A stretch of 64,000 nt of DNA. Origin: Pseudooceanicola marinus (GTDB lineage: Bacteria > Pseudomonadota > Alphaproteobacteria > Rhodobacterales > Rhodobacteraceae). A model generated the notes under the pieces. It saw only the letters and a program-made list of their open reading frames with translations, was not told the DNA's origin and did no database searches. The DNA lies in NCBI RefSeq assembly GCF_020177265.1, contig NZ_JAIVMC010000001.1:744001-808000 (forward strand). Direction: 5' to 3'. Both the position numbers and the translations under genes were made by a program. Below, piece by piece: positions 1,360 to 50,000 of the stretch. Every line of letters begins with the position of its first letter. The stretch's first letter is position 1.

Positions 1360-2619
1360 TCAGCGCACCTTGCCGAAGACCAGCGAGGCGTTGGTGCCGC
1401 CGAAGCCGAAGCTGTTGGACAGGGCCACGTCGATCTTGCGTTCCACCTTCGCATTGGGCGCCAGGTCCATCTTGGTCTCGACCGCGAGGTTTTCGAGGTT
1501 GATGGTCGGCGGCGCCACCTGGTCACGGATCGCCAGGATCGAGAAGATCGCCTCGATCGCGCCAGCCGCCCCCAGAAGGTGGCCGGTGGCGGATTTCGTC
1601 GAGGACATGGTGACTTCGGAGGCGTGATCACCCATCAGGCGCTCCACCGCGCCCAACTCGATGGTGTCGGCCATGGTCGAGGTGCCATGCGCGTTGACGT
1701 AATCCACGTCGGCGGCGGTCAGGCCTGCGCGCTTTAGCGCCATTTCCATGCAGCGCCGCGCGCCGTCGCCGTCCTCGGAGGGCGCGGTGATGTGGTAGGC
1801 GTCGCCCGACAGGCCGTAGCCCAGGTATTCACCGTAGATCTTCGCGCCACGGGCCACGGCGTGTTCGTATTCTTCCAGCACGACGATGCCCGCGCCCTCG
1901 CCCATGACGAATCCGTCACGGTCGGCGTCATAGGGGCGGCTGGCCTTCTCGGGCTCGTCCGGGCGCTTGGTGGACAGGGCCTTGCAGGCGTTGAAGCCCG
2001 CGATGCCGATCTTGCAGATCGCGGCCTCGGCGCCACCGGCAACCATCACGTCCGCGTCGCCCCACTGGATCAGCCGGGCGGCGTCACCGATGGCATGGGC
2101 GCCCGTCGAACAGGCGGTCACGACCGAATGGTTCGGGCCCCTGAAGCCGTACTTGATCGACACCTGACCGGAGATCAGGTTGATCAGCGCGCCGGGGACA
2201 AAGAAGGGCGACACGCGGCGCGGGCCCTTTTCTTCCATCATCACGGCGGTGTTGGCGATGGAGTTCAGACCACCGATGCCAGAGCCGATCAGGACGCCGG
2301 TGCGTTCCAGGGCCTCGGTGTCTTCGGGGGTCCAGCCGGCGTCCTCGACGGCCATCTGCGCGGCCGCCAGGCCGAACAGGATGAAGGTGTCGATCTTGCG
2401 CTGTTCCTTCGGGGCCAGCCACTGGTCGGCGTTGAAGGTGCCGTCGGTGCCATCCCCGCGCGGGACCTCGCAGGCATAGGTGGTGGCCAGGCCTTCGGTA
2501 TCAAACTGGGTGATCGGACCGGCGCCCGATTTGCCTTCCAGGATCCGGCTCCAGCTTTCCTCGACTCCGCAGGCCAGCGGGGTCACCAGGCCCAGACCGG
2601 TAACAACGACACGACGCAT
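1360..2619 (-). CDS. fabF: Beta-ketoacyl-ACP synthase II (FabF)
   Basis: 419-residue KAS II, the condensing enzyme that extends acyl-ACP with malonyl-ACP in type II fatty-acid synthesis in the cytoplasm. The Cys-His-His triad is complete: Cys170 in VVTACSTGAH, His311 in NAHGTST and His347 in ATGHLLGAAGA. The start is the ATG at 2619 (protein MRRVVVTGLG), preceded by AAAGGGG eight bases upstream. A longer in-frame reading upstream is low-complexity and has no ribosome site. fabF is followed directly by mltG, and acpP, fabG and fabD lie upstream on the same strand, with a hypothetical gene between fabF and acpP. The whole block reads as the fatty-acid cluster. Confidence 0.96.
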   Translation of the reverse strand: MRRVVVTGLGLVTPLACGVEESWSRILEGKSGAGPITQFDTEGLATTYACEVPRGDGTDGTFNADQWLAPKEQRKIDTFILFGLAAAQMAVEDAGWTPEDTEALERTGVLIGSGIGGLNSIANTAVMMEEKGPRRVSPFFVPGALINLISGQVSIKYGFRGPNHSVVTACSTGAHAIGDAARLIQWGDADVMVAGGAEAAICKIGIAGFNACKALSTKRPDEPEKASRPYDADRDGFVMGEGAGIVVLEEYEHAVARGAKIYGEYLGYGLSGDAYHITAPSEDGDGARRCMEMALKRAGLTAADVDYVNAHGTSTMADTIELGAVERLMGDHASEVTMSSTKSATGHLLGAAGAIEAIFSILAIRDQVAPPTINLENLAVETKMDLAPNAKVERKIDVALSNSFGFGGTNASLVFGKVR

Positions 2620-2816
2620 GTATTCTGCCCCTTTGATTTGCTCTCCGCCCGCTCTTACCCGAGGGCGCGCCCCCGGGGCAAGACTTCCGCGTTTACCCTG
2701 ACGGTTTTGGGCAGGCAAAAGCAGGGGATTGCGCCCTGGATCCGGCGTGGCGGGGGGCGCTGCTCCCGTCCCGGCCGGGGCCGCCCCTCCCCGGGATCCT
2801 TGGGGCAAGGAGAAGA

Positions 2817-3500
2817 TCAGGCCGGCGGAGCTTCGGCCACGTAGTCGCGCAGGAAGGCGGCCAGGGCGGGCTGGCGGTCGCCGATGGCCAGGGCGATCTC
2901 ACCGGCCAGGCGGCGGTCGGTCGCGTCGGGGGCGCCCTCCGCCCGGATCGCGGTCAGGCTTTCGCCGTCGGCCCACATCTGCATCGCATGCGGCAGATCC
3001 CGGGCCCCGTGCCAGCCGGCATGGCCGCCGGCCAGTTGCACCGCCACGAAGGGCCGCTCGGCCGGCACACGGTCCAGGCAGAGGCGGGCCAGACCGTCGC
3101 CCGCACCGTCCAGCCAGGCCCCCATGGCCGCCAGCGCCGCCATGTCCTCGTCCCGCAGCCGCCGGTCCGCCGGCAACCAGGGGTGAGCGTGATCCGCCGC
3201 CTCCAGCGACAGCCCGCGGAACCGCGCGCCCGCGTCGCTCTGGCGTTGCGCGCAGAACAGCGCCTGGGCGTAGAACTCCAGAACCGGCTCGCTCTGCGGG
3301 GCGATCTCCACCAGCCAGGGCAGCGCCGCGTAGCTGACGGGATAGAGCTCCTCCTGGTGGTGCAGCTCTTCCCAGAAGAGATGCTGCGCCTCTTCCGCGT
3401 CCCATCGGGCCGCCAGACGGCCCAGTTGCCCAGGCACATCGCGCACCCCGTAGGGGCCGTAAAGCCGGGTCCAGATCGGGTCAGACAGCTCAAGCCGCAT
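2817..3500 (-). CDS. Hypothetical protein between acpP and fabF
   Basis: 227-residue protein of unknown function; I do not recognise a named domain. It is soluble, Ala/Glu/Leu-rich and looks alpha-helical, with no signal peptide or membrane segment. A conspicuous patch is HLFWEELHHQEELYPVSYAA followed by LPWLVEIAP, near residues 40-70. I recall similar Tyr-Pro-x-Ser-Tyr-Ala-Ala segments in uncharacterised helical-repeat proteins, but that is only an impression. The ATG at 3500 has a strong AAGGAGG seven bases upstream. An ATG six codons earlier overlaps that ribosome site and is rejected. The gene interrupts the acpP-fabF interval and is separated from acpP by a terminator, so it probably has its own promoter. 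Confidence 0.7.
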   Translation of the reverse strand: MRLELSDPIWTRLYGPYGVRDVPGQLGRLAARWDAEEAQHLFWEELHHQEELYPVSYAALPWLVEIAPQSEPVLEFYAQALFCAQRQSDAGARFRGLSLEAADHAHPWLPADRRLRDEDMAALAAMGAWLDGAGDGLARLCLDRVPAERPFVAVQLAGGHAGWHGARDLPHAMQMWADGESLTAIRAEGAPDATDRRLAGEIALAIGDRQPALAAFLRDYVAEAPPA

Positions 3501-3551
3501 GATCCCGCCCTCCTTCAAACCTGTTGGCAGACCTTTTGGTCCTGCTCATGC

Positions 3552-3585
3552 AAAAGGGGCCCCCACCATCGGCAGGAGCCCCTTT
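3552..3585 (-). terminator. Terminator after acpP
   Basis: On the minus strand the arms AAAGGGGC and GGCCCCTTTT form a G/C-rich stem with an internal loop, followed by a short T-run. It lies about 50 bases beyond the acpP stop and separates acpP from the downstream hypothetical gene. Confidence 0.6.
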
Positions 3586-3631
3586 CGATCTTGCTGCGAC
3601 GGCGGAATGCACGTCGCCCCCGTCACTGGCC

Positions 3632-33444: not shown

Positions 33445-34939
33445 CCGGGTACTGCGCGCCACTCCGCTGGAGGGGCCCTTCGCGCTGACCCTGCGCGAGG
33501 GCAACACCGAGCGGATCCACTGCCTGAACCCGGCTGCCGAGGCCGCCGGGCTGGCCCGCGGCATGGGGCTGGCCGATGCCCGGGCCTTCTGCCCCGCGCT
33601 GATGACCGACCCCGCCCGCCCCGATCGCGAGGCGCGCTTCCTGGAGGTGCTGCGACGCTGGGCCATGCGCTATTGCCCCTGGGTGGGCACCGACGGCGCG
33701 GACGGGCTGGTGCTGGACGTGACCGGCTCGGCCCATCTGATGGGCGGCGAAGAGGCAATGCTGGACGACATGGCGACCCGGGCGGCCCGCTCGGGCCTGA
33801 CCCTGCGCGCAGGCCTCGCCGACACGCGCGGCGCCGCCTGGGCCCTGGCCCATCACGCGCGCGGCGCCACCGCCCGCGCCGCCCCGGGCGAGACCGCCCA
33901 GGCCCTGGCCCCCCTGCCCGTCACCGCCCTGCGGCTGGATCCGGCGGAGATCGCGGGCCTCGAACGGCTGGGCCTGCGCACCGTGGGCGCGCTGGAGGCT
34001 GCGGCCCGCGCGCCCCTCGCCCGCCGCTTCGGCCCCGGCCTTCTGGTGCGGCTCGATCAGGCCATGGGCCGCCAGGGCGAGGCCGTCAGCCCCGCCGGCG
34101 AGGCACCGCATTACGCCACCCGCCTGACGCTGCCCGAACCCATCGGGCTGGAGGCCGACGTGATGGAGGGCACCCGACGGCTGCTGGAGCGGCTCTGCGA
34201 AAAGCTCGACCATCAGGAAACCGGCGCGCGCACGCTCTGCCTGACCCTGCGCCGGGTCGACCGCGACAGCCGCCAGGTGGAGCTGCGGCTGGCCGCGCCG
34301 ATGCGCGATCCGGTGCGCATCCTGCCCCTGTTCCGCCGCGGGCTGGAGGAGGTGGATGCGGGCTATGGCATCGACCAGATGCGGCTGGAGGCCACGCTGG
34401 TGGAGCCGCTGCCCGCACGCCAGCTGTCGCCCCGTGCCACGGGGGGCGACCGGGCGCGCGTCGAGGATCTGATCACCCGTATCGGCACCCGTATCGGGCT
34501 GGAGAACGTGCAGCGGTTCCGCCCCGCCGACAGCCATATCCCCGAACGCGCCTTCCAGGTGGTGCCGGCGGCCTTCGCCGGGCCGGAAGCGGGGCCCGAG
34601 ATGGGGCCAGAAATGGGGGCGGAGGCCGAGCCCCACACCGCCAACCGCGCCGGGGCCTGGGCCGCCCCGCGCCCGCGTCCGCTGCGCCTTTTCCCGCCCG
34701 AACCCATCGCGGGCCACGGGCCACGCCCGCCCGTCCCGCTGCGCTGGCGGCGCATGTCCCTGACCCCGGTGCGGGTCACCGGGCCGGAACGGATCGCGCC
34801 GGAATGGTGGTTCGACCTGCCCGGCTGGCGCCGCGGCCTGCGCGATTACTGGACGGTGGACACCCGCGAAGGACGCCGGCTGTGGCTGTTCCACACGCCG
34901 CAGGATCCCGCCTGGTTCGTCGAAGGGGAGTTCGCATGA
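33386..34939 (+). CDS. imuB: Mutasome Y-family polymerase-like protein ImuB
   Basis: 517-residue DinB/UmuC homologue. In this family the polymerase domain has usually lost its catalytic acids and acts as a hub linking the beta clamp and DnaE2. It opens RRIASMWFPRLPSDRVLR and shows the helix-hairpin-helix region LERLGLRTVGALEAAARAPL at about 193-212. The C-terminal part has RPLRLFPPEPI, resembling a clamp-binding segment, and LPGWRRGLRDYWTVDTREGR. The ATG at 33386 has GGAG six bases upstream. The stop overlaps dnaE2 as ATGA. It is the central gene of the cassette and has a LexA box just in front. Confidence 0.92.
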   Translation: MSAGTGRRIASMWFPRLPSDRVLRATPLEGPFALTLREGNTERIHCLNPAAEAAGLARGMGLADARAFCPALMTDPARPDREARFLEVLRRWAMRYCPWVGTDGADGLVLDVTGSAHLMGGEEAMLDDMATRAARSGLTLRAGLADTRGAAWALAHHARGATARAAPGETAQALAPLPVTALRLDPAEIAGLERLGLRTVGALEAAARAPLARRFGPGLLVRLDQAMGRQGEAVSPAGEAPHYATRLTLPEPIGLEADVMEGTRRLLERLCEKLDHQETGARTLCLTLRRVDRDSRQVELRLAAPMRDPVRILPLFRRGLEEVDAGYGIDQMRLEATLVEPLPARQLSPRATGGDRARVEDLITRIGTRIGLENVQRFRPADSHIPERAFQVVPAAFAGPEAGPEMGPEMGAEAEPHTANRAGAWAAPRPRPLRLFPPEPIAGHGPRPPVPLRWRRMSLTPVRVTGPERIAPEWWFDLPGWRRGLRDYWTVDTREGRRLWLFHTPQDPAWFVEGEFA

Positions 34940-37900
34940 CCGCCACGCCCCATGCCGCGCCGCCCGCCCCACGGAAGCCGGGCGCCCCCTGCGCCCCCGC
35001 CGAAGCCGATGCCGCCGCACCCTCCAGGCCAGGGGACATAGCGCCCTGCCCCTCGGACAACTCCTGTCCGGGGCCTGAACGGGAGGGGGCCGGGCCGCCC
35101 GAAGCTGCACCCGAGGCTCCCGCCGAGCGCGATCCGGAGGACAGCCCCTGGCCCGACAGCGCCCGTGCCGCCACCGAGGCCACCCCGGATCCCGCCGCGC
35201 CGGGCGGCAGCGCGCCACGCGCCGAGGTCACCTCTGCGCCCCATCCCGGCCCGGGCGGCCATGGCGACGCGCCCCCGGCCTATGCGGAGCTCTGTACCAC
35301 CTCCAACTTCACCTTCCTCACCGGGGCCTCCCACCCCGAAGAGCTGGTGACACGGGCCGCCGAACTGGGGCTGTCGGCCCTCGCCATCACCGACCGCAAC
35401 TCGCTGGCCGGGGTGGTGCGCGCCTGGTCGGCGCTGAAGGAGCTGAAACGCGCCGCCGAGGAGGCAGCAGAGGCCGCCGACGACAGCCCCGCCACCGGCC
35501 CGCAGGTGCGGTCGCACACCCGCGTCGATCCGTCCTCGCGCACCGCCCTACCCGCCAAACCGGCGCTTGCGCGCCCGCAGGTGCCGCGCCTGCCGCGGCT
35601 GATCACCGGCTGCCGGCTGGTGCTGCGCGACTGCCCCGTCGACTGGATCGCCCTGCCGCGTGACCGCGCCGCCTATGAACGGCTGTCGCAACTGCTGACC
35701 CTGGGCAAGCGGCGGGCCGAAAAGGGCGACTGCCTGCTGGGGCTGGATGACCTGCTGACCCACGGCCAGGGGATGATCCTGATCGCCCTGCCGCCACGCG
35801 ATCTGGCGGCCGCCCGCCGCCCCGTGGCCCAGGTGCAGCGGCGCTTTCCGGGCCATGTCTTCCTGGGCGCGGCGCCGCGCTACGACGGCTCCGACCAGGG
35901 GTGGTTCGACGCCTGCGCCCAGGCCGCCCTGGCGACCTCGGCGCCGATGGTGGCCGTGGGCGACGTGCTGATGCACCACGGGGCGCGGCGGCAGCTGGCC
36001 GATGTGCTGACCTGCCTGCGCGAGGGGCTAACCATCGACCACATCGGCACCCGCGCCCAGCCCAATGCCGAACGCCGTCTGAAGGCACCCGCCGACATGG
36101 CGCGCCTCTACCGCCGCCACCCCGCCGCCCTGCGTCGCACCACCGAGATCGCCGCGCGCTGTGCCTTCGACCTCTCCGATCTCAGTTACGAATACCCCGA
36201 TGAGGTGTCCGAGGGCGGCGAGGCGCCCCAGGACCGGCTCGACCGGCTGGTGCGCGCGGGCCTGCGCCGGCGCTGCCCCGATGGCATCCCCGACCGCTAT
36301 CACGCCCTGGCGGAGAAAGAGCTGTCGGTGGTCGAGGAGCTGGGCTTTGCCGCCTATTTCCTGACCGTGCACGACATCGTCGCCTATGCCCGCTCCGTCG
36401 GGATCCTCTGCCAGGGGCGCGGCTCAGCGGCCAACTCGATCCTGTGCTGGGCGCTTGGCATCACCGATGTCAGCCCGGACATGATCGGCATGGTCTTCGA
36501 ACGCTTCGTCTCGCGCCACCGGGGCGAGCCGCCGGACATCGACGTGGATTTCGAACATGAACGCCGCGAGGAGGTGATCCAGTGGATCTACGACCGCTAC
36601 GGGCGGGACCGTGCCGGGCTCTGCGCCACGGTGATCCACTTCCGCTCGCGCGCCGCGATCCGCGAGGTGGGCAAGGTCATGGGCCTTTCGCAGGATGTGA
36701 CGGCGGCGCTGGCGGGCCAGATCTGGGGCATGTCGGGCAAGGGCGCCGACCCGGACCGCATGCGAGAACTGGGCCTTGATCCCTCCGACCGCAGGCTGGC
36801 GCAGACCATCCGCCTGATCGGCGAGATCATCGGCTTCCCCCGCCATCTGTCGCAGCACGTGGGTGGCTTCATCATCACCCGGGGCCGGCTCGACGCGCTC
36901 TGCCCGATCGAGAACGCGGCGATGGAAAACCGCACCGTGATCGAATGGGACAAGGACGATATCGACGCCCTCGGCATCCTGAAGGTCGATGTCCTGAGCC
37001 TCGGCATGCTGACCTGCCTGCGCAAGAGCTTCGATCTGCTGTCGGAACATGAAAAGCGCCAGCTGACCCTGGATACCGTCCCGCAGGAGGACCCCGAGAC
37101 CTACGGCATGCTGTGCCGCGCCGATGCGATCGGGGTCTTCCAGGTGGAAAGCCGGGCGCAGATGAACTTCCTGCCGCGAATGCAGCCCCGCACCTTCTAT
37201 GACCTGGTGATCGAGGTGGCCATCGTGCGCCCCGGGCCGATCCAGGGCGGCATGGTGCAGCCCTATATCCGCCGCCGTCAGGGGCTGGAGGCGCCCGAAC
37301 CCTTCGGCCCCGCCCTGGCGGAGGTGACGGCCAAGACCCTGGGCGTGCCTCTGTTCCAGGAACAGGCGATGCAGATCGCCGTGGTGGGCGCCGGTTTCAC
37401 CCCCGAGGAGGCCGACCGGCTGCGCCGGTCGCTGTCCACCTTCCGCCGCATGGGCACCATCGGCGTCTTCCGCGACAAGTTCGTGGGCGGCATGCTGGCC
37501 AATGGCTATGACCCGGAGATCGCCGCGCTGTGTTTCAGCCAGATCGAGGGCTTCGCCGACTACGGCTTTCCCGAAAGTCACGCGGCGGCCTTTGCCATGC
37601 TGACCTACGTGTCCTCCTGGCTGAAACGCCACCACCCGGCGGTCTTCGCCTGCGCCCTGCTGAACTCACAGCCCATGGGGTTCTACGCCCCCGCGCAGAT
37701 CGTGCGCGACGCCCGCGAGCACGGGATCGAGGTGCGGCCCATCTGCGTCAACGCCTCCCACTGGGACAACAGGCTGGAACGGCGCACCGACGGCGCGCTG
37801 GCCCTGCGGCTGGGGTTCCGCCAGATCAAGGGTTTCCGCGAGGAGGACGCAGGCTGGATCGTGGCGGCGCGCGGCAACGGCTACCCCGATCCCGAAAGCC

Positions 37901-38637
37901 TGTGGCTGCGCGCCGGCCTCGCCCCTTCGGTGCTGGAGAAACTGGCCGAGGCCGACGCCTTCGCCGGCCAGGGGCTGACCCGCCGCGATGCCCTGTGGGA
38001 GGTGAAGGCGATCCGCGCGCCGAAACCCCTGCCGCTGTTTGACGATGCGCTGGATGGCGAAGGCGGGGTGGAGCCGAAGGTGGAGCTGCCCGCGATGCAC
38101 CTGGGCGAGGAAGTGGTGGAAGATTACGTTTCCATGCGCCTTTCGCTCCGCGCCCACCCGATGGAGCTGCTGCGCCCCTCGCTGCCCGACACCCTGCCCC
38201 ATGGAGAGCTGGCCACCACGCCTCCGGGCCGCGTGACGATCTGCGGGCTGGTCATCACCCGGCAGCGGCCCGGCACCGCCTCGGGCGTCATCTTCCTGAC
38301 GCTGGAGGATGAAAGCGGGGTCGCCAACGTGGTGGTCTGGCCCAAGCTTTACGAGGCCTACCGCCGCGCGGTGATGGGCGGGCGTCTGCTGCGGGTGAGC
38401 GGGTATATCCAGCGCGAGGGGATCGTGGTGCATGTGATCGCCCAGCGGATCGAGGACCTGTCGCCGCGCCTGGGCGAGCTGGGCCACCCGCTGAGCGACC
38501 AGGTGGGCGTGACCCGGCCGGAGGCCGACGACGCGCCGCGCCGCCCCGACGTGCCCCGCCCGGCCCGCACCAAACCCACGGCCAACCACCCCCGCGAACA
38601 GGCCAAGCGGCTGTTTCCCAGTCGGGATTTCCACTGA
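34936..38637 (+). CDS. dnaE2: Error-prone DNA polymerase DnaE2 (ImuC)
   Basis: 1233-residue C-family polymerase for damage-induced translesion synthesis. Domains in order: a PHP domain from about 116 (YAELCTTSNFTFLTGASHPE), a polymerase core with PDIDVDFEHERREEVI and DIDALGILKVDVLSLGML, finger/HhH region (ADAFAGQGLTRRDALWEVKA), and a C-terminal OB fold (RVTICGLVITRQRPGTASGV). Two oddities stand out. First, a Pro/Ala/Glu-rich N-terminal extension of about 115 residues has no internal ATG/GTG before the PHP domain. Second, a low-complexity insert of about 50 residues (near 170-220) sits within the PHP domain. Both make it longer than usual DnaE2 proteins (about 1050-1100). The start overlaps imuB. 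Confidence 0.94.
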   Translation: MTATPHAAPPAPRKPGAPCAPAEADAAAPSRPGDIAPCPSDNSCPGPEREGAGPPEAAPEAPAERDPEDSPWPDSARAATEATPDPAAPGGSAPRAEVTSAPHPGPGGHGDAPPAYAELCTTSNFTFLTGASHPEELVTRAAELGLSALAITDRNSLAGVVRAWSALKELKRAAEEAAEAADDSPATGPQVRSHTRVDPSSRTALPAKPALARPQVPRLPRLITGCRLVLRDCPVDWIALPRDRAAYERLSQLLTLGKRRAEKGDCLLGLDDLLTHGQGMILIALPPRDLAAARRPVAQVQRRFPGHVFLGAAPRYDGSDQGWFDACAQAALATSAPMVAVGDVLMHHGARRQLADVLTCLREGLTIDHIGTRAQPNAERRLKAPADMARLYRRHPAALRRTTEIAARCAFDLSDLSYEYPDEVSEGGEAPQDRLDRLVRAGLRRRCPDGIPDRYHALAEKELSVVEELGFAAYFLTVHDIVAYARSVGILCQGRGSAANSILCWALGITDVSPDMIGMVFERFVSRHRGEPPDIDVDFEHERREEVIQWIYDRYGRDRAGLCATVIHFRSRAAIREVGKVMGLSQDVTAALAGQIWGMSGKGADPDRMRELGLDPSDRRLAQTIRLIGEIIGFPRHLSQHVGGFIITRGRLDALCPIENAAMENRTVIEWDKDDIDALGILKVDVLSLGMLTCLRKSFDLLSEHEKRQLTLDTVPQEDPETYGMLCRADAIGVFQVESRAQMNFLPRMQPRTFYDLVIEVAIVRPGPIQGGMVQPYIRRRQGLEAPEPFGPALAEVTAKTLGVPLFQEQAMQIAVVGAGFTPEEADRLRRSLSTFRRMGTIGVFRDKFVGGMLANGYDPEIAALCFSQIEGFADYGFPESHAAAFAMLTYVSSWLKRHHPAVFACALLNSQPMGFYAPAQIVRDAREHGIEVRPICVNASHWDNRLERRTDGALALRLGFRQIKGFREEDAGWIVAARGNGYPDPESLWLRAGLAPSVLEKLAEADAFAGQGLTRRDALWEVKAIRAPKPLPLFDDALDGEGGVEPKVELPAMHLGEEVVEDYVSMRLSLRAHPMELLRPSLPDTLPHGELATTPPGRVTICGLVITRQRPGTASGVIFLTLEDESGVANVVVWPKLYEAYRRAVMGGRLLRVSGYIQREGIVVHVIAQRIEDLSPRLGELGHPLSDQVGVTRPEADDAPRRPDVPRPARTKPTANHPREQAKRLFPSRDFH

Positions 38638-39774: not shown

Positions 39775-40416
39775 TCAGCTGTCCTGAAGTTCCTGCTTCA
39801 GCATCTTGCGAATGCGCTTGCGCTCGCGCCGGCCCGACACCTGCTCGGTCTGCGGGTAGACCGGGACCACGTCCCAGGGATCCTGATCGACCTTCAGGCG
39901 GAAGCGGCGGCGGGCCGCGATTTCCAGGTCGTCCCCGCCGAAGGCGCAGGTGACCATGATCTCGAAATCGCGGATCCGGTCGCGCAGCTCCGACAGGTCA
40001 TCGGGCAGGTCCTCGTTCCGCTCCACCGTGATGTCGAGGATGTTGCGGAAGGTGCCCAGCCCCATGAAATCACCGCGGTTCAGCGGGCCCTGGCTGGTGA
40101 TCCCCTCGGGGCGCTCCTCGTCGTCGCCGGATTTCTGCAGGATGTCCCGGTCGGTGACGGTGGCGGTGTATTCGCTGCCATCGGTCATCCGCAGGGTGCA
40201 GTAGACCCCCTGCCCGTAGATCGGTTCCTGGCTCATGTTCGACATCAGGATCAGCGCATCCAGATCCGATCCGGCGCCCCGGTTGATGATGACACGCGGT
40301 TTGCGCGCCCGCATGTAACTACCCACGAAGATCTGGAGATAGATCAGCCAGACCCCCAGCATCCCGACATTGGTAAGCACGTTCAGCGCCGAGCTGTATT
40401 CCTTCAGCCAGTCCAT
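39775..40416 (-). CDS. Hypothetical membrane-anchored protein
   Basis: 213-residue protein that I do not recognise. One transmembrane helix lies near residues 12-34 (VLTNVGMLGVWLIYLQIFVG), followed by a Lys/Arg flank and a soluble domain of mixed beta character (KPRVIINRGAGSDLDALILM, GQGVYCTLRMTDGSEY, FEIMVTCAFGGDDLEIAARR). The end is very basic (GRRERKRIRKMLKQEL). By the positive-inside rule the domain probably faces the cytoplasm. The ATG at 40416 has GGGAG seven bases upstream. It lies between the amidase and the ABC importer on the same strand. The 62-base gap to the permease gene leaves co-transcription possible. Confidence 0.75.
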   Translation of the reverse strand: MDWLKEYSSALNVLTNVGMLGVWLIYLQIFVGSYMRARKPRVIINRGAGSDLDALILMSNMSQEPIYGQGVYCTLRMTDGSEYTATVTDRDILQKSGDDEERPEGITSQGPLNRGDFMGLGTFRNILDITVERNEDLPDDLSELRDRIRDFEIMVTCAFGGDDLEIAARRRFRLKVDQDPWDVVPVYPQTEQVSGRRERKRIRKMLKQELQDS

Positions 40417-40478
40417 GGGTCTCCCGTCCGTCTTTGCATGGGGCAGACCAACGCCCCCGAACGGGTTCCGTTCCCCGA

Positions 40479-41954
40479 TCAGCCCTGACCGCGCGTCCCT
40501 TCGATCCGCAAACGGCTGTCGGGCTGCAACCGCCCGCGCAACCGGCGTGACAGGGCATCCACCGCCAGGGTCAGCGCCACGGTGACCAACAGCAGCGCCA
40601 TGACGCGATCCAGCCGCAGCTCTGCCACGTTGGTCTGCACGTAGAATCCCAGGGTGCCGAGGCCCAGCACGCCCATGATGGCGCTTTCGCGCAGGATGAT
40701 CTCCCACCGGTAGAGACAGAGCGCGCGAAAGTTGCCCATCAGGCGCGGGAACAGCTCCCACCCCCAGAGGGTGAGGCCGCGCGGGGCATCCGGGCGCAGC
40801 GGCAGCGTGGCGGCCTGGCGGCCCATCAGGTGGGCGATGATCGCCCCGTTGTGCAGGCCAAGCGCCAGCACGGCCGGCAACATCGAGGGGCCGAGGATCT
40901 GCAGGAAGACGAAGGCCAGCATGTATTCCGGGGTGGAGCGCAGCAGCACCAGCGCCCCGTGGCCCAGAATCGCGCCCAGACGGCCCGCCACCCGCGGCAC
41001 GATCATCGGGAAGGCCAGGGCCGCCAGCCCGCCCGCCAGCACCAGCGCCAGCTGGCCCAGCACCAACGTGTCCACCACGCCCGGCCAGGCCTGTTGCACG
41101 AACACCCGGTCGAGCCAGCCGGTCCAGTCCGCCCCGGAGCGCAGCGGGGCCGGCACGATGTCCGACAGGAACCGTGCCAGCGCCCCCGATCCCATCGGCG
41201 GCACCTCGACCCGCAGCAGCGCCCAGACCGAGGCCAGCAGATAGACCGGCATCAGCCGCCAGCGCGCCCAGTGGCGGATCGGCAGGATTAACAAGAAGAA
41301 GACCGCCAGCACCACCACGGCGCGGTCGTATTCAGCCTGGCGGAACCAGGTTTCCAGCTGGAACCCCAGCGTCGGCAGGCCGATGAAGCCCAGCACGGCG
41401 GAGCTGCGCATGCCGCATTCCAGCCGGTAAAGCGTATAGGCCGCCATCTGCGGCAGCACGGCGGGGTAGCGGACCCAGACCAGCCGGGTGACCGCCCCCA
41501 GCCCCGCAGGCAGCGCCTGTTCGCCGCCCCGCCCGGCCTCGTCGAGATATTCGGAGAGGACCTTGGCGAAGATGCCCGCGTAGGGCAGCCCGATGGCCAG
41601 CACGCCGGTCAGCGGCGACAGGCCGGTGATGTTCATCAGCAAAAGCGCCCAGAACAGCTCATGCAAGGCGCGAATGGCGACGCAGAGGAACCGCACCGGC
41701 CCGAGGTGGTAAAGCGGCGCCAGAACCAGTCCCGCCACCGCGCCCAGCCCCACGCCGCACAGCGCGAAGGCCAGGGTCAGAACGGCCCCATTGAGCAGCG
41801 ACAGCGGGTCCGACAGGTCGGGGTGCAGGATCCCCTGCCCGATCGCCGCCAGCGTCATCCAGGGATCGGGACGCGGCGCCGACAGATCCGCCAGCACCAG
41901 CGCCAGCACCGTGGCCGCCAGGAAGCCCAGCGAGATGCGCCGCGCCACGCTCAC
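40479..41954 (-). CDS. PhnE-type ABC permease, two domains fused
   Basis: 491-residue importer permease in which two BPD_transp_1 (PhnE-like) domains are joined. Each half has about six helices and an EAA-type loop: RYPAVLPQMAAYTLYRLECG with SAVLGFIGLPTLGF in the first, and ELFPRLMGNFRALCLYRWEI with SAIMGVLGLGTLGF in the second. It would be the channel for the adjacent PhnC-like ATPase and PhnD-like binding protein. A GTG start at 41954 overlaps the ATPase stop (GTGA). Although the family is named for phosphonate, the neighbours here are selD and mnmH, which points to selenium oxyanions. Substrate is inferred. Confidence 0.88.
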   Translation of the reverse strand: MSVARRISLGFLAATVLALVLADLSAPRPDPWMTLAAIGQGILHPDLSDPLSLLNGAVLTLAFALCGVGLGAVAGLVLAPLYHLGPVRFLCVAIRALHELFWALLLMNITGLSPLTGVLAIGLPYAGIFAKVLSEYLDEAGRGGEQALPAGLGAVTRLVWVRYPAVLPQMAAYTLYRLECGMRSSAVLGFIGLPTLGFQLETWFRQAEYDRAVVVLAVFFLLILPIRHWARWRLMPVYLLASVWALLRVEVPPMGSGALARFLSDIVPAPLRSGADWTGWLDRVFVQQAWPGVVDTLVLGQLALVLAGGLAALAFPMIVPRVAGRLGAILGHGALVLLRSTPEYMLAFVFLQILGPSMLPAVLALGLHNGAIIAHLMGRQAATLPLRPDAPRGLTLWGWELFPRLMGNFRALCLYRWEIILRESAIMGVLGLGTLGFYVQTNVAELRLDRVMALLLVTVALTLAVDALSRRLRGRLQPDSRLRIEGTRGQG

Positions 41955-42610
41955 GCGTAAAGATCCATCAGCCGGTCACGCGGACAGTCGGCCACGGGCG
42001 CATCCAGCACGATCCGCCCCCCTTTCAGGCCGAGGATGCGCGTGGCGGTCTGCCGCGCCAGGGTCACGTCATGCAGCGCCAGCACGGAGGTGGGGAAACT
42101 TGCCGCCAGGTCCTCCAGCAGGGCCGCGGCCTGGGACGGATCCAAGGCGGAGACGGGTTCATCCCCCAGCACCACCTCGCCGCCGCGCAAGAGCGCCCGC
42201 GCCAGCGCAACGCGCTGCCGCTGCCCGCCCGACAGCTGCGCGACCCGACGTCGGCCCATGCCGGTCAGGCCCACGCGGGTCAGCACCTGCTCCACCTGCG
42301 CCCGCTCATCGGCGGAGGGGCGCAGCAGGATACGCAGGTTTCGGGCCGTGCCGGCGTCGTCCAGCCGTCCCATCCAGACGTTGTGAAAGACCGACAGCGG
42401 CCCGACCAGCCCGTGATCCTGCGGCACCAGGGCCACGCGCCGCGCCGTCAGCCGCTGCGCCAGCGCCGCCAGCAGGGTGGATTTCCCCACGCCGCTGCGC
42501 CCCAGAAGCGCGATCCGCTCTCCGGGCTCTATCGTCAGGGTCACATCGCTGAGAACGGGGGTCTCCCCCCATCCCAGACGCTCCCCCGAGAGGGAGACGA
42601 GCGCCGCCAT
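41951..42610 (-). CDS. PhnC-like ABC importer ATPase
   Basis: 219-residue nucleotide-binding subunit: Walker A GRSGVGKST near 37-45, signature LSGGQRQRVALARALL near 131, Walker B VVLGDEPVSALDP, and the H-loop in VLALHDVTLAR. It powers import through the fused permease. The start ATG shares one base with the stop of the binding-protein gene (TGATG) and its own stop overlaps the permease start, so the three genes are translationally coupled. Its length, at the short end for PhnC, is normal for the group. Confidence 0.9.
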   Translation of the reverse strand: MAALVSLSGERLGWGETPVLSDVTLTIEPGERIALLGRSGVGKSTLLAALAQRLTARRVALVPQDHGLVGPLSVFHNVWMGRLDDAGTARNLRILLRPSADERAQVEQVLTRVGLTGMGRRRVAQLSGGQRQRVALARALLRGGEVVLGDEPVSALDPSQAAALLEDLAASFPTSVLALHDVTLARQTATRILGLKGGRIVLDAPVADCPRDRLMDLYA

Positions 42611-43455
42611 CAGTCGATGATGTCGAGCGCGCGGGCCGTGTCCTCGATCGGCTGGTAAAGACCGTTGTCGGCCTCGATGAACGCGGACCGTGGGAAGGTC
42701 GCCAGCAGATCCTCGTCGGTCAGCGACAGCAGCGCCTCCTGCACCTTGGCGGTGAAACCCGCGCCGAAGCGGCCATCGACATCGCCGCGGATGGTCCAGT
42801 TGTAATCGGGGTACGGCGGGGTCTGCCAGATCACGGTGGTCTGGTCGACCTCCGGCGCGCCCTCGCTCTCGGCCAGTCCGTACACCGAGTAATTCAGCGC
42901 GCCGACCTCATAGGCGCCCGAGCCCACCAGTCGCAGGGTCTGGCCGTGGTCACCGGAAAAGCCCACGTCGGAGAAGAGATCCTCCGGCGCCTCGCCGGTC
43001 TCCTCGCGGATATAATATTCGGGCATCAGGCGGCCCGAGGTCGAGCCCTGCGCGCCGAAGGTGAAGCTGCGCCCGGCGATGTCGGGGAAGTCTTCCGACG
43101 GCTGCAGCCCGGTGGCATCGTTGGCGATGAAATAGGTGACGAACTCCGCATCCTCGGCGCCTTGCGCGATGGCGGTGGAGCCGGGCACCAGGGCGCGGGC
43201 CTGCACGCCCGACAGGCCGCCGAACCAGCCCAGCTGGATCTGGTCGTTGCGGAAGGCGGTGACCGCGGCGGCGTAGGATTTCACCGGCACGTATTGCACC
43301 TCGACCCCCAGCTCGTCGGAGAGGTAATCGGCCACGGCGCCGAAACGTTCGACCAGGCGGCTTTCATCGTCATCGGGGATGGCGGAGAAATAGAGCGTAT
43401 CGGCAGCCGCCGGCGTCGCGGCGGCGGTCATCAGCAGGAAGGCAAGACGTTTCAT
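42610..43455 (-). CDS. PhnD-like oxyanion-binding protein, probable selenium importer
   Basis: 281-residue periplasmic binding protein of the PhnD superfamily. A signal peptide ends near AAA (residue 18), followed by YFSAIPDDDESRLVERFGAV, a ligand loop QLGWFGGLSGVQARALVPG and FTFGAQGSTSGRLMPEYYIR. PhnD-type pockets bind tetrahedral oxyanions or phosphonates. I recall that a subset encoded next to selenium genes is annotated as putative selenate-binding, and here selD-mnmH lie directly upstream on the same strand, 95 bases away. I therefore infer selenate/selenite-type uptake; phosphite or phosphonate remains possible. The ribosome site is weak. Confidence 0.85.
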   Translation of the reverse strand: MKRLAFLLMTAAATPAAADTLYFSAIPDDDESRLVERFGAVADYLSDELGVEVQYVPVKSYAAAVTAFRNDQIQLGWFGGLSGVQARALVPGSTAIAQGAEDAEFVTYFIANDATGLQPSEDFPDIAGRSFTFGAQGSTSGRLMPEYYIREETGEAPEDLFSDVGFSGDHGQTLRLVGSGAYEVGALNYSVYGLAESEGAPEVDQTTVIWQTPPYPDYNWTIRGDVDGRFGAGFTAKVQEALLSLTDEDLLATFPRSAFIEADNGLYQPIEDTARALDIID

Positions 43456-43550
43456 CGGGAAAACTCATCACTTGGGTTGCATTTGGGGCGCCATGCCCCG
43501 CGAAGGTGGAAGGCCCCTTGCCGAGGCGCGTTCTGTCCCGGCCCGCGGGC

Positions 43551-44597
43551 TCAGGCAAAGCGGATGCCCTGGCCCGCGGCCATGCGGCCCACGGGGGCGG
43601 CGGCGTCGAACCCATGCTGGCGGAAGGTGGCCAGCACCTCTTCGACCGCCTCGGGCGCGCACGACACCAGCAGCCCCCCCGAGGTCTGCGGATCGCAGAC
43701 CAGCGCGCGGTCGAGATCCGACAGCCCGTCGAGGGTGACTTGCGCGCCGTAGCTGGCCCAGTTGCGCCCCGAGGCGCCGGTGATGTTGCCCGCATCCGCC
43801 AGATCGCGCGCCGAGGACAAGAGCGGCACCCGGGCCCAGTCGATCTGAGCCTGCACGCCGGAGCCACGCGCCATTTCCAGCCCGTGACCCGCAAGACCGA
43901 AACCGGTCACGTCGGTCATCGCATGGACGCCGGACAGCGCCGCCAGGTCGGGGCCCGGCGTGTTCAGCCGGGTCATCGTGGCGATCATCTCGGCGTACTG
44001 GTCGTCCGACAGCAGTTCCTTCTTGAAGGCCGCCGAATAGATGCCGACACCCAGCGGCTTGCCGAGGATCAGCACGTCGCCCTCCTGCGCCTGGTCGTTC
44101 TGTTTCATCTGCGCCAGATCGACGAGGCCGATGGCAACAAGGCCGTAGATCGGCTCGACCGAGTCGATGGTATGGCCGCCGGCGACGGGAATGCCTGCCT
44201 CGGCAGCCGCCTTGGCGCCGCCCTCCAGGATCTTGCCGATGGTCTCGCCCGGCAGGGCGTTGACCGGCATGCCAACCACCGCCAGGGCGAACAGCGGCCG
44301 CCCGCCCATGGCGTAGACATCGGAAATGGCGTTGGTCGCGGCGATACGGCCGAAATCCTCCGGGTCGTCGACGATAGGCATGAAGAAATCGGTGGTGGCG
44401 ACGATCGCCTGGGTCTCGGAGATCTTGTAGACCGCCGCGTCATCCGCGCTGCCGATGCCCACCAGCAACTCCGGCGGCACCGGCAGGGCCTTGGTGCCCT
44501 TCAGCAGGTCCGACAGCACGCCGGGCGCGATCTTGCAGCCGCAGCCGCCGCCGTGGCTGAGGGAGGTCAGGCGGGGGGTCTTCACGGGATCGGTCAT
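43551..44597 (-). CDS. selD: Selenophosphate synthase SelD
   Basis: 348-residue selenide, water dikinase, which makes selenophosphate from selenide and ATP. The active-site loop GGGCGCK has Cys19 and Cys21 with Lys22. The residue that is selenocysteine in some SelD proteins is ordinary Cys here (TGC codons). Other hallmarks are VGIGSADDAAVYKI, ATTDFFMPIVDDPEDFGRIA and DVTGFGLAGHGLEMA. The start overlaps the mnmH stop (ATGA), so selD and mnmH form one unit. Without selA or selB in view, the visible user of selenophosphate is MnmH, that is tRNA modification. The importer genes follow downstream. Confidence 0.95.
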   Translation of the reverse strand: MTDPVKTPRLTSLSHGGGCGCKIAPGVLSDLLKGTKALPVPPELLVGIGSADDAAVYKISETQAIVATTDFFMPIVDDPEDFGRIAATNAISDVYAMGGRPLFALAVVGMPVNALPGETIGKILEGGAKAAAEAGIPVAGGHTIDSVEPIYGLVAIGLVDLAQMKQNDQAQEGDVLILGKPLGVGIYSAAFKKELLSDDQYAEMIATMTRLNTPGPDLAALSGVHAMTDVTGFGLAGHGLEMARGSGVQAQIDWARVPLLSSARDLADAGNITGASGRNWASYGAQVTLDGLSDLDRALVCDPQTSGGLLVSCAPEAVEEVLATFRQHGFDAAAPVGRMAAGQGIRFA

Positions 44598-45673
44598 TCG
44601 GTGTCTCCTCTAGCGGGCGTTGCGGCCAGGTCGGCGACCTGCGCCGCGATCCGGGCGGCCAGCTCGGGCAAAGCCTGCGGATCCAGGCGCGGGGCGGTCA
44701 GCGGGGTCACCGTCGTCGGGTCCATCCGCGCACGGTGACGGGCATAGCTGGGATCATAGCGCAGCTCCATCAGGCTGCGGGCCAGCGCGGCGAAGGCGCC
44801 CGCGCGGGCCTCGGCGTGCCAGGCCTCGATCTGCTCGGCGGCCACGTAGGGGCGAAGGGTGTCGAGGATCTGGTGCAGCCGGGCCTTGTCCTCGGTGACA
44901 TCGGCATAGGCACGCGCCAGGTAGGCGGCACGTTCGTCCAGCGGCGCCTCCAGCACGATGCGCGGCGCGGCCTTCATCGCGGTCCAGAGGGAGGGCGGCA
45001 GGCGGCATTCGCCGACCTTGGAGCTTTCGGCCTCCACCACCACGGGCCGCGTCGGATCCAGCCGGGCCACCTGCATGGCCAGCGCCGTCTCAAAGCCGCG
45101 CTGCTGCGGCTGCGGGCCCATGGCGCCGAACAGCGATCCACGATGGTTCGCCAGCCCTTCCAGGTCCAGCACTTGCAGGCCCTGATCTGGCAGCATGTTC
45201 AGAAGTTCGGTCTTGGCCGATCCGGTATTGCCGTCCAGCAGAACCACCGGCGCCGGGAAGGGATCGTCGTAAAGCGCCTGCACCACCAGCCCGCGAAAGG
45301 CCTTGTAGCCTCCCTCGATCGTCTCCACCCGCCAGCCGATCTGGCGCAGGATCGTGGCGAAGGAGCCGGAGCGCTGCCCGCCGCGCCAGCAGTAGATCAG
45401 CGGCTGCCAGCCGCCGTCGCGATCCTGCAGCTTCTCCTCGATATGCCGCGCGGCATTGCGTGCCACCAGCGCGCCGCCGATCTTGCGCGCATCAAATGGC
45501 GAGACCTGCTTGTAGATCGTCCCGACCCGGGCACGCTCCTCGTCGTCCAGCACCGGCATGCTGAGCGCACCGGGCACGTGGTCGTCGGCGTATTCCGCCG
45601 GCGCCCGCACGTCGATGATGTCGTCGAAACCGTGATCAAAAAGATCGCTAAGGGATGTGAGCTTGATCGCCAT
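44594..45673 (-). CDS. mnmH: tRNA 2-selenouridine synthase MnmH (SelU)
   Basis: 359-residue enzyme that exchanges sulfur for selenium at the wobble uridine of certain tRNAs via a geranylated intermediate. An N-terminal rhodanese domain has catalytic Cys95 in YCWRGGQRS. A P-loop domain follows with GNTGSAKT at 148-155 and EAESSKVGECRLP. Length is close to E. coli YbbB/SelU. The ATG at 45673 is preferred; an ATG six codons upstream is possible. It heads the mnmH-selD unit and is divergent from tRNA-Leu. Confidence 0.95.
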   Translation of the reverse strand: MAIKLTSLSDLFDHGFDDIIDVRAPAEYADDHVPGALSMPVLDDEERARVGTIYKQVSPFDARKIGGALVARNAARHIEEKLQDRDGGWQPLIYCWRGGQRSGSFATILRQIGWRVETIEGGYKAFRGLVVQALYDDPFPAPVVLLDGNTGSAKTELLNMLPDQGLQVLDLEGLANHRGSLFGAMGPQPQQRGFETALAMQVARLDPTRPVVVEAESSKVGECRLPPSLWTAMKAAPRIVLEAPLDERAAYLARAYADVTEDKARLHQILDTLRPYVAAEQIEAWHAEARAGAFAALARSLMELRYDPSYARHRARMDPTTVTPLTAPRLDPQALPELAARIAAQVADLAATPARGDTE

Positions 45674-45856
45674 TCCCGCCAGATAGCGCATGCCCGCGTC
45701 CAGGCAAAGCGCGGAGCGCAGGCAGCGGCGTATGGCGGACGCCGCCGCCGCGAAACGGAGCGTCGCCTGAGGCCCGCGATGCGATTTCCGCTTCAAACCG
45801 GCGGGGCGCTTTGCTACAGACCACGTCACGCGATGGCCCGAGGGCCGTGGCCGGTT

Positions 45857-45940
45857 GCGGGTGTGGCGGAATTGGTAGACGCACCAGATTTAGGTTCTGG
45901 CGCCTTTGGCGTGGGGGTTCGAGTCCCTTCACCCGCACCA
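45857..45940 (+). tRNA. tRNA-Leu (anticodon UAG)
   Basis: Acceptor GCGGGTG pairs with CACCCGC, followed by A and an encoded CCA. The anticodon stem CCAGA/TCTGG closes the loop TTTAGGT, giving anticodon UAG (Leu). D-arm TGGCGGAATTGGTAGACGCA, long variable arm GCGCCTTTGGCGT and T-arm GGGGTTCGAGTCCC are all typical of a class II leucine tRNA. Confidence 0.97.
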
Positions 45941-45970
45941 CTTTGATTTTAAGATTCTTTAAACGGCATT

Positions 45971-46019
45971 CTGCTCTGAGACAAAGCGGCAGCTGACTCA
46001 TTGGCAGTTTGTCTCGCAG
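45971..46019. repeat. Large inverted repeat downstream of tRNA-Leu
   Basis: GAGACAAA (45978-45985) and TTTGTCTC (46008-46015) are perfect complements. Outside them CTGC and GCAG continue the stem after a three-base bulge. The loop is 22 bases and contains CAGCTG. It starts 30 bases past the tRNA. Apart from this, the 358-base gap to 46298 shows nothing I can name. Confidence 0.5.
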
Positions 46020-48330: not shown

Positions 48331-49191
48331 TCAGACCTTGTTCAGGCTCAACGTTCCTTCAGGGATCATCCCTGCGTCCTGAAGGGTTGCAACCAGGTCC
48401 AGAGCCGCGGTCCGCTCACTCGTTGAAGAGGCTGCGCCCAGTTGCTCCTGGCACCAGGCCTGAAGCGCGGAGGGCGTGGCCTTCGCGTCCTCCGGAGCGA
48501 ACTGCGCCGGCTCCGAGGCCATGGTGGCGGTCGAAGGGGTTTCTGCCCCGTCTTCGAGCGCCCGTGCGGTCGCATCATCGACGAAGATATCGCCCTCGAT
48601 CCCGGCGAAGGCCCGGATGCGGTTGATGCGCTCTTCGGTGCAGTCCAGCAGCGCCGCCATGGCGGAGGTCTTGCCCATGGGCTTGGTCGAACCGACATAG
48701 CCATAGGGCACGCAGTCGGAGCGTTTCAGCACCCGGTTCATGATCGGGTCGATCACGGTGACGATGTCGGTGATGCCCGACTCCCGTGCAAACTCCAGCG
48801 AGCCGGCCATCAGTTCACAGGTGGCGTAGCTGACGGAGTTGCGGGATTTCCCGCCGCTCAGCCGGTCGGTATCCACGCAGAACCGCGTCGATTCCCAGAG
48901 CGTGGGGCTGCGCAGCGGCGGCTCACCGTCCAGGATGTCCGAGAAGACATCCGACAGCATATGCGGGCCGGTTGTCTGCAGCGCCCGGACACAGGCCACC
49001 ACATGCCCGTCATCGTCCAGGCCCAGCACGTAGGCCGGATCAAGGGAATCGAATTCATCGATCTCCTTGCCATCCTTGACCACCACGTCCCATCCTAGGC
49101 GGTCCTTGAAAACACGCGCACGCAGCGCGAACATCTCGTCAATCAGGTTGCTGTAGCGATGCCGATTGAGTCCGTCGACAATTAGGATCAT
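48331..49191 (-). CDS. LuxI-family acyl-homoserine-lactone synthase
   Basis: 286-residue autoinducer synthase. All key residues of the family are visible: Arg24, Phe28 and Trp34 (ALRARVFKDRLGW), Asp45 and Asp48 (EIDEFDSLD), Arg69 (VACVRAL), Phe83 and Glu100/Arg103 (LWESTRF). It joins S-adenosylmethionine to an acyl chain from acyl-ACP. A C-terminal extension of about 70 residues beyond the usual 210-220 is Ala/Glu-rich and of unknown role. GGAGGGG precedes the ATG. It follows luxR on the same strand, and the 107-base gap contains two palindromes. The 323-base region 48008-48330 after its stop shows nothing I can support. Confidence 0.95.
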   Translation of the reverse strand: MILIVDGLNRHRYSNLIDEMFALRARVFKDRLGWDVVVKDGKEIDEFDSLDPAYVLGLDDDGHVVACVRALQTTGPHMLSDVFSDILDGEPPLRSPTLWESTRFCVDTDRLSGGKSRNSVSYATCELMAGSLEFARESGITDIVTVIDPIMNRVLKRSDCVPYGYVGSTKPMGKTSAMAALLDCTEERINRIRAFAGIEGDIFVDDATARALEDGAETPSTATMASEPAQFAPEDAKATPSALQAWCQEQLGAASSTSERTAALDLVATLQDAGMIPEGTLSLNKV

Positions 49192-49204
49192 TCTGACCCC
49201 TCCA

Positions 49205-49220
49205 ATTCATTCCCATGAAT
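49205..49220. promoter_or_regulatory. Palindrome close to the luxI start
   Basis: ATTCAT-TCCC-ATGAAT is a perfect inverted repeat with six-base arms, 14 bases upstream of the luxI ATG and next to its ribosome site. It may be an operator or a leader hairpin affecting translation. Confidence 0.4.
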
Positions 49221-49252
49221 GAAGGAGTATGCGGATCGCCGCAGCCATTCTA

Positions 49253-49268
49253 TTAGGGAAATCCCTTA
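49253..49268. promoter_or_regulatory. Candidate lux-box-like palindrome upstream of luxI
   Basis: TTAGGGAAATCCCTTA is a palindrome with one mismatch, about 60-77 bases upstream of the luxI ATG, a position suited to LuxR activation. It does not match the classical lux box closely. Confidence 0.4.
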
Positions 49269-49298
49269 CCCTGCCCCAGAGCTAGGAAACAAAGGGCA

Positions 49299-50000
49299 TC
49301 AGCCGGGATGAATCAGTCCGAGGCTGATCGCGCGGCCCACAGCCTGGGCGGTGGTCAGCGCCCCCAGCTTGGTTCGGCTGGAGCGCAGATGCACCTCCAC
49401 CGTCCGGCTGGAAATCGCGAGGATATCCCCGACATCCTGCTGGGTCTTTCCCGCCGCGATCCATTGCAGCACATCGGTTTCGCGCTGCGACAGGGCCGGA
49501 TGGGTCAGCCGGCGCACCATGTCGTGGGATTGCACAACATGATCGTGCAGGTGCACCGCCGCCGCCTGAAGCTCTGACAGGATGCTGGATTTCAGCAGCT
49601 GCCATTCCCGTTCGGAACAGTCCCGGGTGACGCTGAACAGCCCAATGTCGCCGTAGGGCCCGCGCACCGGGATGGTCAGCCCCTGCTTGGAAATTCCGAA
49701 ATCATGCGCCGCATGAAAGATCGTGTCGAAGGACTCTTCCCGATGCAGGCGTTTCCAATCCACCGGGGCGATACTTCGGCTGGCGGCCAGCAACGTCGGA
49801 TCCCTGTGCTGGAAATTCTGATCGACATAAAGCTGCTGCCATTCGTCGGGATAATTGACGAAACCATGCACCGTCTGCGCAATCGGGTTCACCCCGGCAT
49901 AGGCCGCGTAATCGAGCTCATGCGTGTCACACACGGTATCCAGAAACTGCCTGAGATCATTCGCAGGCGCGTCGCGTTTACTGAGGTCGATGACAGCCAA
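49299..50000 (-). CDS. LuxR-family quorum-sensing regulator
   Basis: 233-residue LuxR regulator. The autoinducer-binding domain shows Trp54, Tyr58, Asp67 and Pro68 (EWQQLYVDQNFQHRDP) and the conserved GLTIPVRGPYG. The C-terminal LuxR helix-turn-helix is about 168-222 (LSQRETDVLQWIAAGKTQQD, then RTVEVHLRSSRTKLGA). It likely senses the product of the downstream luxI. The only start before the conserved region is a TTG at 50000 with GAGAG just upstream; the frame has a stop five codons before. This rare start may keep LuxR levels low. A 32-base inverted repeat lies 24 bases upstream. Confidence 0.92.
   Translation of the reverse strand: MAVIDLSKRDAPANDLRQFLDTVCDTHELDYAAYAGVNPIAQTVHGFVNYPDEWQQLYVDQNFQHRDPTLLAASRSIAPVDWKRLHREESFDTIFHAAHDFGISKQGLTIPVRGPYGDIGLFSVTRDCSEREWQLLKSSILSELQAAAVHLHDHVVQSHDMVRRLTHPALSQRETDVLQWIAAGKTQQDVGDILAISSRTVEVHLRSSRTKLGALTTAQAVGRAISLGLIHPG

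Follow-up and report, generated by a model that had tools for sequence, protein, structure and literature searches.

A TIGR04553-type importer in a mnmH-selD operon of Pseudooceanicola marinus, a candidate for selenium uptake related to picocyanobacterial PhnD1

The mnmH-selD-importer operon

We analyzed a 64,000-nucleotide stretch of Pseudooceanicola marinus DNA (assembly GCF_020177265.1, contig NZ_JAIVMC010000001.1, positions 744,001-808,000; hereafter the window), in which five genes of the minus strand join two genes of selenium use to an importer of the ATP-binding cassette (ABC) class. The first gene, mnmH (44594..45673), encodes a tRNA 2-selenouridine synthase of 359 amino acids, which scored 461.8 bits against NF008752 (cut-off 266) and 363.8 bits against TIGR03167 (cut-off 219.75), and whose rhodanese Cys motif YCWRGGQRS and P-loop GNTGSAKT are intact. 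It shares 4 bases (ATGA) with selD (43551..44597, minus strand), which encodes a stand-alone selenophosphate synthetase of 348 amino acids (527.1 bits against NF002098, cut-off 299; 426.4 bits against TIGR00476, cut-off 125). This SelD is a Cys form: residues 18-22 read GCGCK, with the Cys that we take to be catalytic.

After a gap of 95 bases (43456..43550, minus strand, read from the open reading frame coordinates) follow the three importer genes on the same strand. A periplasmic substrate-binding protein of 281 amino acids (42610..43455), whose start looks signal-peptide-like by eye, is followed by an ATP-binding subunit of 219 amino acids (41951..42610; PF00005, 92.0 bits, cut-off 25) with intact Walker A, LSGGQ and Walker B motifs, and by a permease of 491 amino acids (40479..41954). 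The binding protein and ATPase genes overlap by 1 base (TGATG), the ATPase and permease genes by 4 bases (GTGA). The permease carries two PhnE-like domains in a single chain: the one-domain model TIGR01097 matched in two stretches and stayed under its cut-off (183.7 bits, cut-off 216.7), and no Pfam family matched at the limit used. No promoter- or terminator-like site was found in the 95-base gap, and a scan of positions 40300-46000 for such sites gave nothing beyond shuffled sequences. A preliminary description of this DNA, made from its letters, had proposed the 4-base mnmH-selD overlap, the coupled importer genes 95 bases past selD, the fused permease and the Cys-form SelD, and all of these were borne out.

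The binding protein belongs by score to NCBIfam TIGR04553, "putative selenate ABC transporter", a family of the tentative type hypoth_equivalog: it reached 346.6 bits, 97 above the cut-off of 250. It also passed TIGR01098, the broader phosphate/phosphite/phosphonate subfamily (151.4 bits, cut-off 112.05). All three importer subunits missed the equivalog cut-offs of PhnD, PhnC and PhnE, the binding protein with 125.4 bits against 261.1 for TIGR03431 and the ATPase with 149.8 against 266.1 for TIGR02315. Thus, the importer resembles the E. coli type PhnCDE in its class and gene types, whereas its subunits fall below the cut-offs of that system. As a label, the selenium role is already present in the tentative NCBIfam name and is hence not new. 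No mention of TIGR04553 by its family name was found in the literature, nor was any article found naming phnD and selD together (searched as whole words, which does not count PhnD1), joining a selenate ABC transporter to selD, or joining selenophosphate to a phosphonate ABC transporter. In the literature examined, "selenate ABC transporter" appears as gene-list entries, once with a guess at selenite export. In a survey from 2016, orphan selD genes of at least three organisms, belonging to different phyla, had an ABC ATPase in their vicinity (PMC5029168); this is perhaps the ATPase of the TIGR04553 importer.

Linkage of the importer to selenium genes

In a sample of 299 genomes of the phylum, the window genome included, TIGR04553 members above the cut-off occurred in 24, selD in 84, mnmH in 71 and selA in 34. 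The TIGR04553 carriers had selD in 22 of 24 cases, against 62 of the 275 non-carriers (Fisher p 1.4e-11; such Fisher values are inflated, as related genomes are not independent). Similarly, mnmH was present in 21 of 24 carriers and 50 of 275 non-carriers, and selA in 13 of 24 and 21 of 275. The importer lay within 10 kb of selD in 9 of the 22 genomes with both (G000, G019, G054, G070, G138, G174, G202, G207 and G271), or in 8 of 21 without the window. As a control, PhnD proper (TIGR03431) was above its cut-off in 51 genomes; at the 25 places where it occurred in genomes also holding selD, it was never within 12 kb of that gene. SenB was found in 5 of the 24 TIGR04553 carriers, each time about 10 kb or less from the importer. 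The window genome gave no match to selA or SenB, which leaves MnmH as the only user of selenophosphate detected there; the search did not cover selB, tRNA-Sec or genes for selenium cofactors.

The preliminary description had called for a neighbourhood survey of homologues for selD and mnmH. We gathered 104 loci, made up of 80 named loci, 5 plasmid loci and 19 stretches from the 299-genome sample. The named loci, being the best 80 of at least 584 relatives, are closely related to the window, and it is mainly the 299-genome sample that represents the other branch of TIGR04553. Relatives of the ATPase and the permease stood beside the binding protein in 77 of the 80 named loci. By tblastn, a selenium gene was detected in the fetched flank of 37 of the 80, and of 30 of the 56 with full flanks (of the 80, selD in 34, mnmH in 13, and the selenoneine genes senB in 21 and senA in 11). 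All eight representatives of these neighbours that were scanned scored above the cut-off of their NCBIfam family (SenB 2, SenA 2, MnmH 1, stand-alone SelD 1, fused SelD 2, the last with TIGR00476). The largest neighbour clusters within 6 kb, besides the importer trio, were SelD (32 members), SenB (20) and MnmH (11). A cluster of 25 members (cluster 4) was set aside as antisense shadows of the gene encoding the binding protein; no name was assigned to clusters 6 and 8 or to some smaller ones.

Where the flank held no selenium gene, selD was present elsewhere in the genome for 40 of 43 named loci, and the same was true of the three loci that had senB, senA or mnmH without selD (L062, L072, L104). 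In all, selD was found in 77 of the 80 named-locus genomes, the three misses (L041, L046, L047) being metagenome-assembled genomes. Two loci counted as lacking a selenium neighbour, L046 and L110, each have a contig-end fragment that clusters with fused SelD. A plasmid search for SelD fusions, which yielded four records with at least 80% query coverage amid much noise, does not enter these counts.

Across the 104 loci, 44 join the importer to selD, mnmH, senA or senB, in 20 different order strings, some of them shortened by contig ends; of the rest, 56 have just the trio and 4 just the binding protein. The order of the window (mnmH-selD-binding protein-ATPase-permease, on one strand) is absent from these 20 strings, and a Sphaerotilus plasmid has mnmH-ATPase-permease-binding protein-selD. 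That the importer has come together time and again with two different selenophosphate users, in ever new arrangements, favours a shared function over the inheritance of one intact segment. The selenium link is thus supported by co-occurrence with selD, by closeness to selD and by the many joined gene orders.

Several arrangements were observed alongside these counts. Family binding proteins without a matching ATPase or permease found nearby occur at L118 (genome G143), L064, L073 and L047. At L121 (G271), a tandem pair of TIGR04553 binding proteins precedes one ATPase and permease, divergent from selD. The importer of L115, on a Rhodobacter plasmid, is preceded on its own strand by genes of nitrate assimilation (nirBD, nitrate reductase, cobA). 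Some importer-carrying genomes, for example G317, G320, G323 and G327, have a selD with an in-frame TGA, likely a selenocysteine form. Within the taxonomic family of the window, 11 of the 13 sampled genomes with selD have a long selD frame (704-943 amino acids), probably fused, and no importer above the cut-off; the other two, the window genome and G175, have a shorter selD frame plus the importer.

The alternative linkage, to phosphonate use, was examined with four genes of the carbon-phosphorus (C-P) lyase system taken from the window genome itself: PhnF, PhnG, PhnH and a presumed PhnI. As single sequences, these queries may miss distant relatives. The window genome holds a separate PhnD on another contig (C8, L137-L138; 311 bits, cut-off 261.1), about 5 kb from PhnF, PhnG, PhnH and PhnK; the gene between PhnH and PhnK had no NCBIfam match and was taken as PhnI by its position. 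This is a true phosphonate locus of the genome, distinct from the importer studied here. None of the four queries matched in the window, and the search there covered no further phosphonate genes. The earlier statement that no phosphonate catabolic gene lies in the window thus holds for the C-P lyase queries, with the qualification that the genome does have a C-P lyase locus elsewhere. Among the 104 loci, PhnG, PhnH and the presumed PhnI matched at a single one, L074 (ptxD, phnX, phnY, phnZ and htxA not searched for). The stretch from the PhnF to the PhnG match of L074 includes a second set of PhnD-like protein, ATPase and permease, separate from its selD-mnmH-linked importer. PhnF alone gave a weak match in two further loci, L055 and L068. 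For C-P lyase genes, the clustering with phosphonate genes that the preliminary description had set against a selenium role was therefore not seen.

Kinship with PhnD1 and the binding pocket

The closest solved structures by sequence were PhnD1 of Synechococcus MITS9220 (7s6g, 225 bits) and of Prochlorococcus MIT9301 (5lq5, 189 bits); PtxB (84 bits), HtxB (52) and E. coli PhnD (35) were more distant. A predicted model of the binding protein (mean predicted local distance difference test score, pLDDT, 92.9) gave the PhnD1 structures 7s6g, 5lq8 and 5lq5 as the top three by E-value in a fold search. Template modelling (TM) scores for the PhnD1 structures were moderate (0.68-0.70). Some PtxB chains in the apo state and some HtxB chains in the open state scored higher (0.74-0.76), which may reflect a more open conformation of the model compared with the ligand-bound crystals. 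When 266-residue stretches of the two PhnD1 chains were scored against TIGR04553, both passed the cut-off of 250 (7S6G 337.1 bits, 5LQ5 301.0 bits), whereas PhnD2/PtxB stayed below it (148.5 bits).

A tree of the PhnD subgroup had also been suggested in the preliminary description. In a tree of 114 rows, the PhnD1 pair joined the clade of the window protein (support 100/98), apart from the PtxB-like outgroup, and a second TIGR04553 branch fell outside. This second branch comprises families f28, f33, f34 and f56, is guessed to consist of Pseudomonas and Burkholderiales kin, and includes members linked to selD, mnmH and sen genes (L122-L125). The tree was flagged for long branches in the second branch, and its rooting relies on the PtxB-like outgroup; a thinned tree of 41 rows, from which the two longest rows had been left out, gave the same placement (100/97) without a long-branch flag. 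In the trees, PhnD1 is thus bracketed by two selenium-linked clades. The permease of the window's branch is one chain (70 loci, median 505 amino acids), and at L122 and L123, in the second branch, it is two open reading frames of 268-284 amino acids.

The seven residues that contact the ligand in 7S6G are identical in the window protein: Y61, S138, T139, S140, H170, D217 and Y218 (numbering matched by hand). Among 105 family rows, Y61, S138, T139, S140 and H170 were kept in all 105, F105 in 104, Y218 in 103 and N188 in 99; position 217 was D in 96 and N in 9. PtxB/PhnD2 shares the fold, the STS motif, the His and the capping Tyr, and differs by Y, A and Q where the TIGR04553 family has F, N and D/N; beside the capping Tyr the window pocket has the PhnD1-type F105 and D217, not the PtxB-type Y and Q (one row compared, 5lv1). 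To our knowledge, what is new here is the combination of three observations on PhnD1: it passes the TIGR04553 cut-off, it has the same contact residues, and it branches between selenium-linked clades.

The published account of PhnD1 is of a phosphite and phosphate binder whose gene has tesA as its conserved neighbour, with no selenium gene named in the portions available (PMC10284923); selenium terms were likewise absent from those portions, from those of PMC5700983 and from those of a review of these binding proteins. Every one of the 97 picocyanobacterial genomes in one database has PhnD1, and phnD1 was not raised by phosphorus starvation in the studies cited there (PMC10284923). Phosphite is bound at 0.05-4.3 uM and phosphate at 7-182 uM, and methylphosphonate is a ligand as well. 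Synechococcus strains WH8102 and MITS9220 lack the ability to use phosphite, as do Prochlorococcus strains MED4 and MIT9313; Prochlorococcus MIT9301, which has PhnD2 and ptxD too, is able to use it. The authors regard the phosphite affinity as fortuitous and propose a constitutive phosphate transporter (PMC10284923). Our statements on picocyanobacterial selD and gene order rest on published accounts: a search for cyanobacterial sequences gave seven pattern matches in viral contigs, none of them from a relative, no match in phages, and no cyanobacterium among 30 of 998 plasmid records. Prochlorococcus marinus and Synechococcus have a putative SelD with an NADH-dehydrogenase-like front part, cyanobacterial SelDs being left out where SelDs are termed true orthologs (PMC1273633), and the selenouridine trait occurs in many cyanobacteria (PMC5322559). 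A SelD of this NADH-dehydrogenase-like build, the fused SelD, also adjoins the importer in Marinobacter and others.

Choice of ion and comparison with known systems

Judged from families, linkage and pocket, the importer very probably carries a selenium oxyanion. The preliminary description had favoured selenate, selenite or a related anion over phosphonate. The association with selD (22 of 24 against 62 of 275 genomes; 9 of 22 against 0 of 25 for PhnD proper) supports the selenium part of that proposal, and the pocket would narrow the choice toward selenite. In shape, selenite resembles phosphite (XO3), and selenate, which is tetrahedral, resembles phosphate. The ligand in 7S6G has three oxygens that receive three hydrogen bonds each and a fourth that receives one, from the capping Tyr (PMC10284923). 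A pocket that holds three oxygens and closes off the fourth position should suit selenite better than selenate; moreover, a scavenger of scarce selenium must reject abundant phosphate, which the PhnD1 pocket does. We thus consider selenite the probable cargo, with appreciable doubt, and hold with similar confidence that the five genes form a single operon for selenium acquisition and use, in which the binding protein would most likely take selenite.

The secreted binding protein would catch the inorganic selenium oxyanion, most likely selenite, by its three oxygens and pass it to the fused two-half permease, powered by the ATPase. Inside the cell, selenite would be reduced to selenide by general thiol chemistry; SelD would then make selenophosphate, and in some tRNAs MnmH would replace the sulphur of the wobble uridine with selenium.

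Several observations weigh against this explanation. Among the named loci, the first 12 relatives (L032-L043) have no selenium gene in the fetched flank; the flank is short on one side for L033, L035 and L042, and selD is present in 11 of the 12 genomes. A mild enrichment of selD also accompanies PhnD proper (24 of 51 genomes against 60 of 248, p 0.0018). The TIGR04553 carriers without selD are G263, which is 78% complete, and G143, which is complete and keeps its member yet gives no match to selD, mnmH or selA. No ATPase or permease was found near the G143 binding protein in the fetched stretch, and G143 was set aside as a counter-example, as only a lone binding protein is seen there. No selenium binding, transport or growth result was found in the literature for any TIGR04553 member. 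Selenite has no counterpart of a P-H contact, and phosphite binding by PhnD1 and PtxB is attributed in part to such a contact with the Tyr (PMC5700983).

The remaining points on this side come from PhnD1 itself and bear on the strongest alternative: an importer of phosphite or phosphate, the role proposed for picocyanobacterial PhnD1, with an indirect link to selenium. The close relatives with solved structures have phosphite as their best ligand and bind phosphate weakly, were stabilized in a broad thermal-shift screen solely by phosphorus-source cocktails, and in one case co-purified with phosphate (PMC10284923). Their pocket residues are those of the window protein, which also exceeds the TIGR01098 cut-off, and their authors favour a constitutive phosphate transporter. 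However, the recurrent partners of the family are selenium genes in many orders, and C-P lyase genes lie near a single locus of 104, with its own PhnD-like set (phosphite dehydrogenase was not searched for). Four strains with PhnD1 are unable to use phosphite, and phnD1 genes do not rise in phosphorus starvation, as noted above. We therefore regard a phosphite or phosphate importer as unlikely.

Slightly less likely still is selenate as the cargo, as the NCBIfam name has it. The whole selenium linkage would apply to selenate equally; the pocket departs from the name and points to selenite. The fourth oxygen of a tetrahedral ion receives a single hydrogen bond in PhnD1, whose binding of phosphate is weaker than that of phosphite by a factor of about 6 to 3600 (calculated from the table of PMC10284923), and no experiment or article was found behind the name. 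A different cargo, be it a small oxyanion such as sulfite or arsenite or a selenium compound such as an organic selenium form, is improbable: the related folds AioX and ArrX do bind arsenite, arsenate and sulfate, but the capped PhnD1 pocket is small and shuts out bulky phosphonates (PMC10284923), and no arsenic or sulfur partner appeared among the identified recurrent neighbours, several recurrent clusters carrying no identification.

Selenite uptake as the role of the window importer may extend to its relatives. More tentatively, and at somewhat less than an even chance, TIGR04553 would be a family of selenite-specific ABC importers that includes the picocyanobacteria, PhnD1 being really a selenite scavenger. 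Tight phosphite and weak phosphate binding by PhnD1 would then follow from a pocket made for a pyramidal XO3 ion that must reject abundant phosphate. On this reading, prokaryotes would have here their first dedicated high-affinity selenium transporter. If PhnD1 does take selenite, the paradox of most picocyanobacteria keeping a binder for phosphite that they cannot use would be resolved, and the ocean cycles of both selenium and phosphorus would be affected.

Two reviews state that in prokaryotes a specific, high-affinity transporter for selenium is yet to be identified (PMC9312934, from 2022; PMC13188914, from 2026). The TIGR04553 family is a strong candidate for such a system. Its linkage is strong, reaches the selenoneine genes, and ties the missing selenium importer to PhnD1 proteins that have already been purified and crystallized. 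YedE is likewise a selenium transporter predicted from linkage to selenium genes (Lin 2015; PMC5322559); it differs in being a ten-helix membrane protein that resembles sulfur transporters.

Upstream of the operon lies a tRNA-Leu on the opposite strand. Two genes lie downstream, one of which matched neither NCBIfam nor Pfam at the limits applied, the other encoding an amidase; neither had a tblastn match in the 80 named loci. Elsewhere in the window, open reading frames at 48331-50000 (minus strand) resemble a LuxI-type autoinducer synthase and a LuxR-type regulator, and the latter part of a long open reading frame at 33673-38637 (plus strand) resembles the error-prone polymerase DnaE2, both by eye from the translations.

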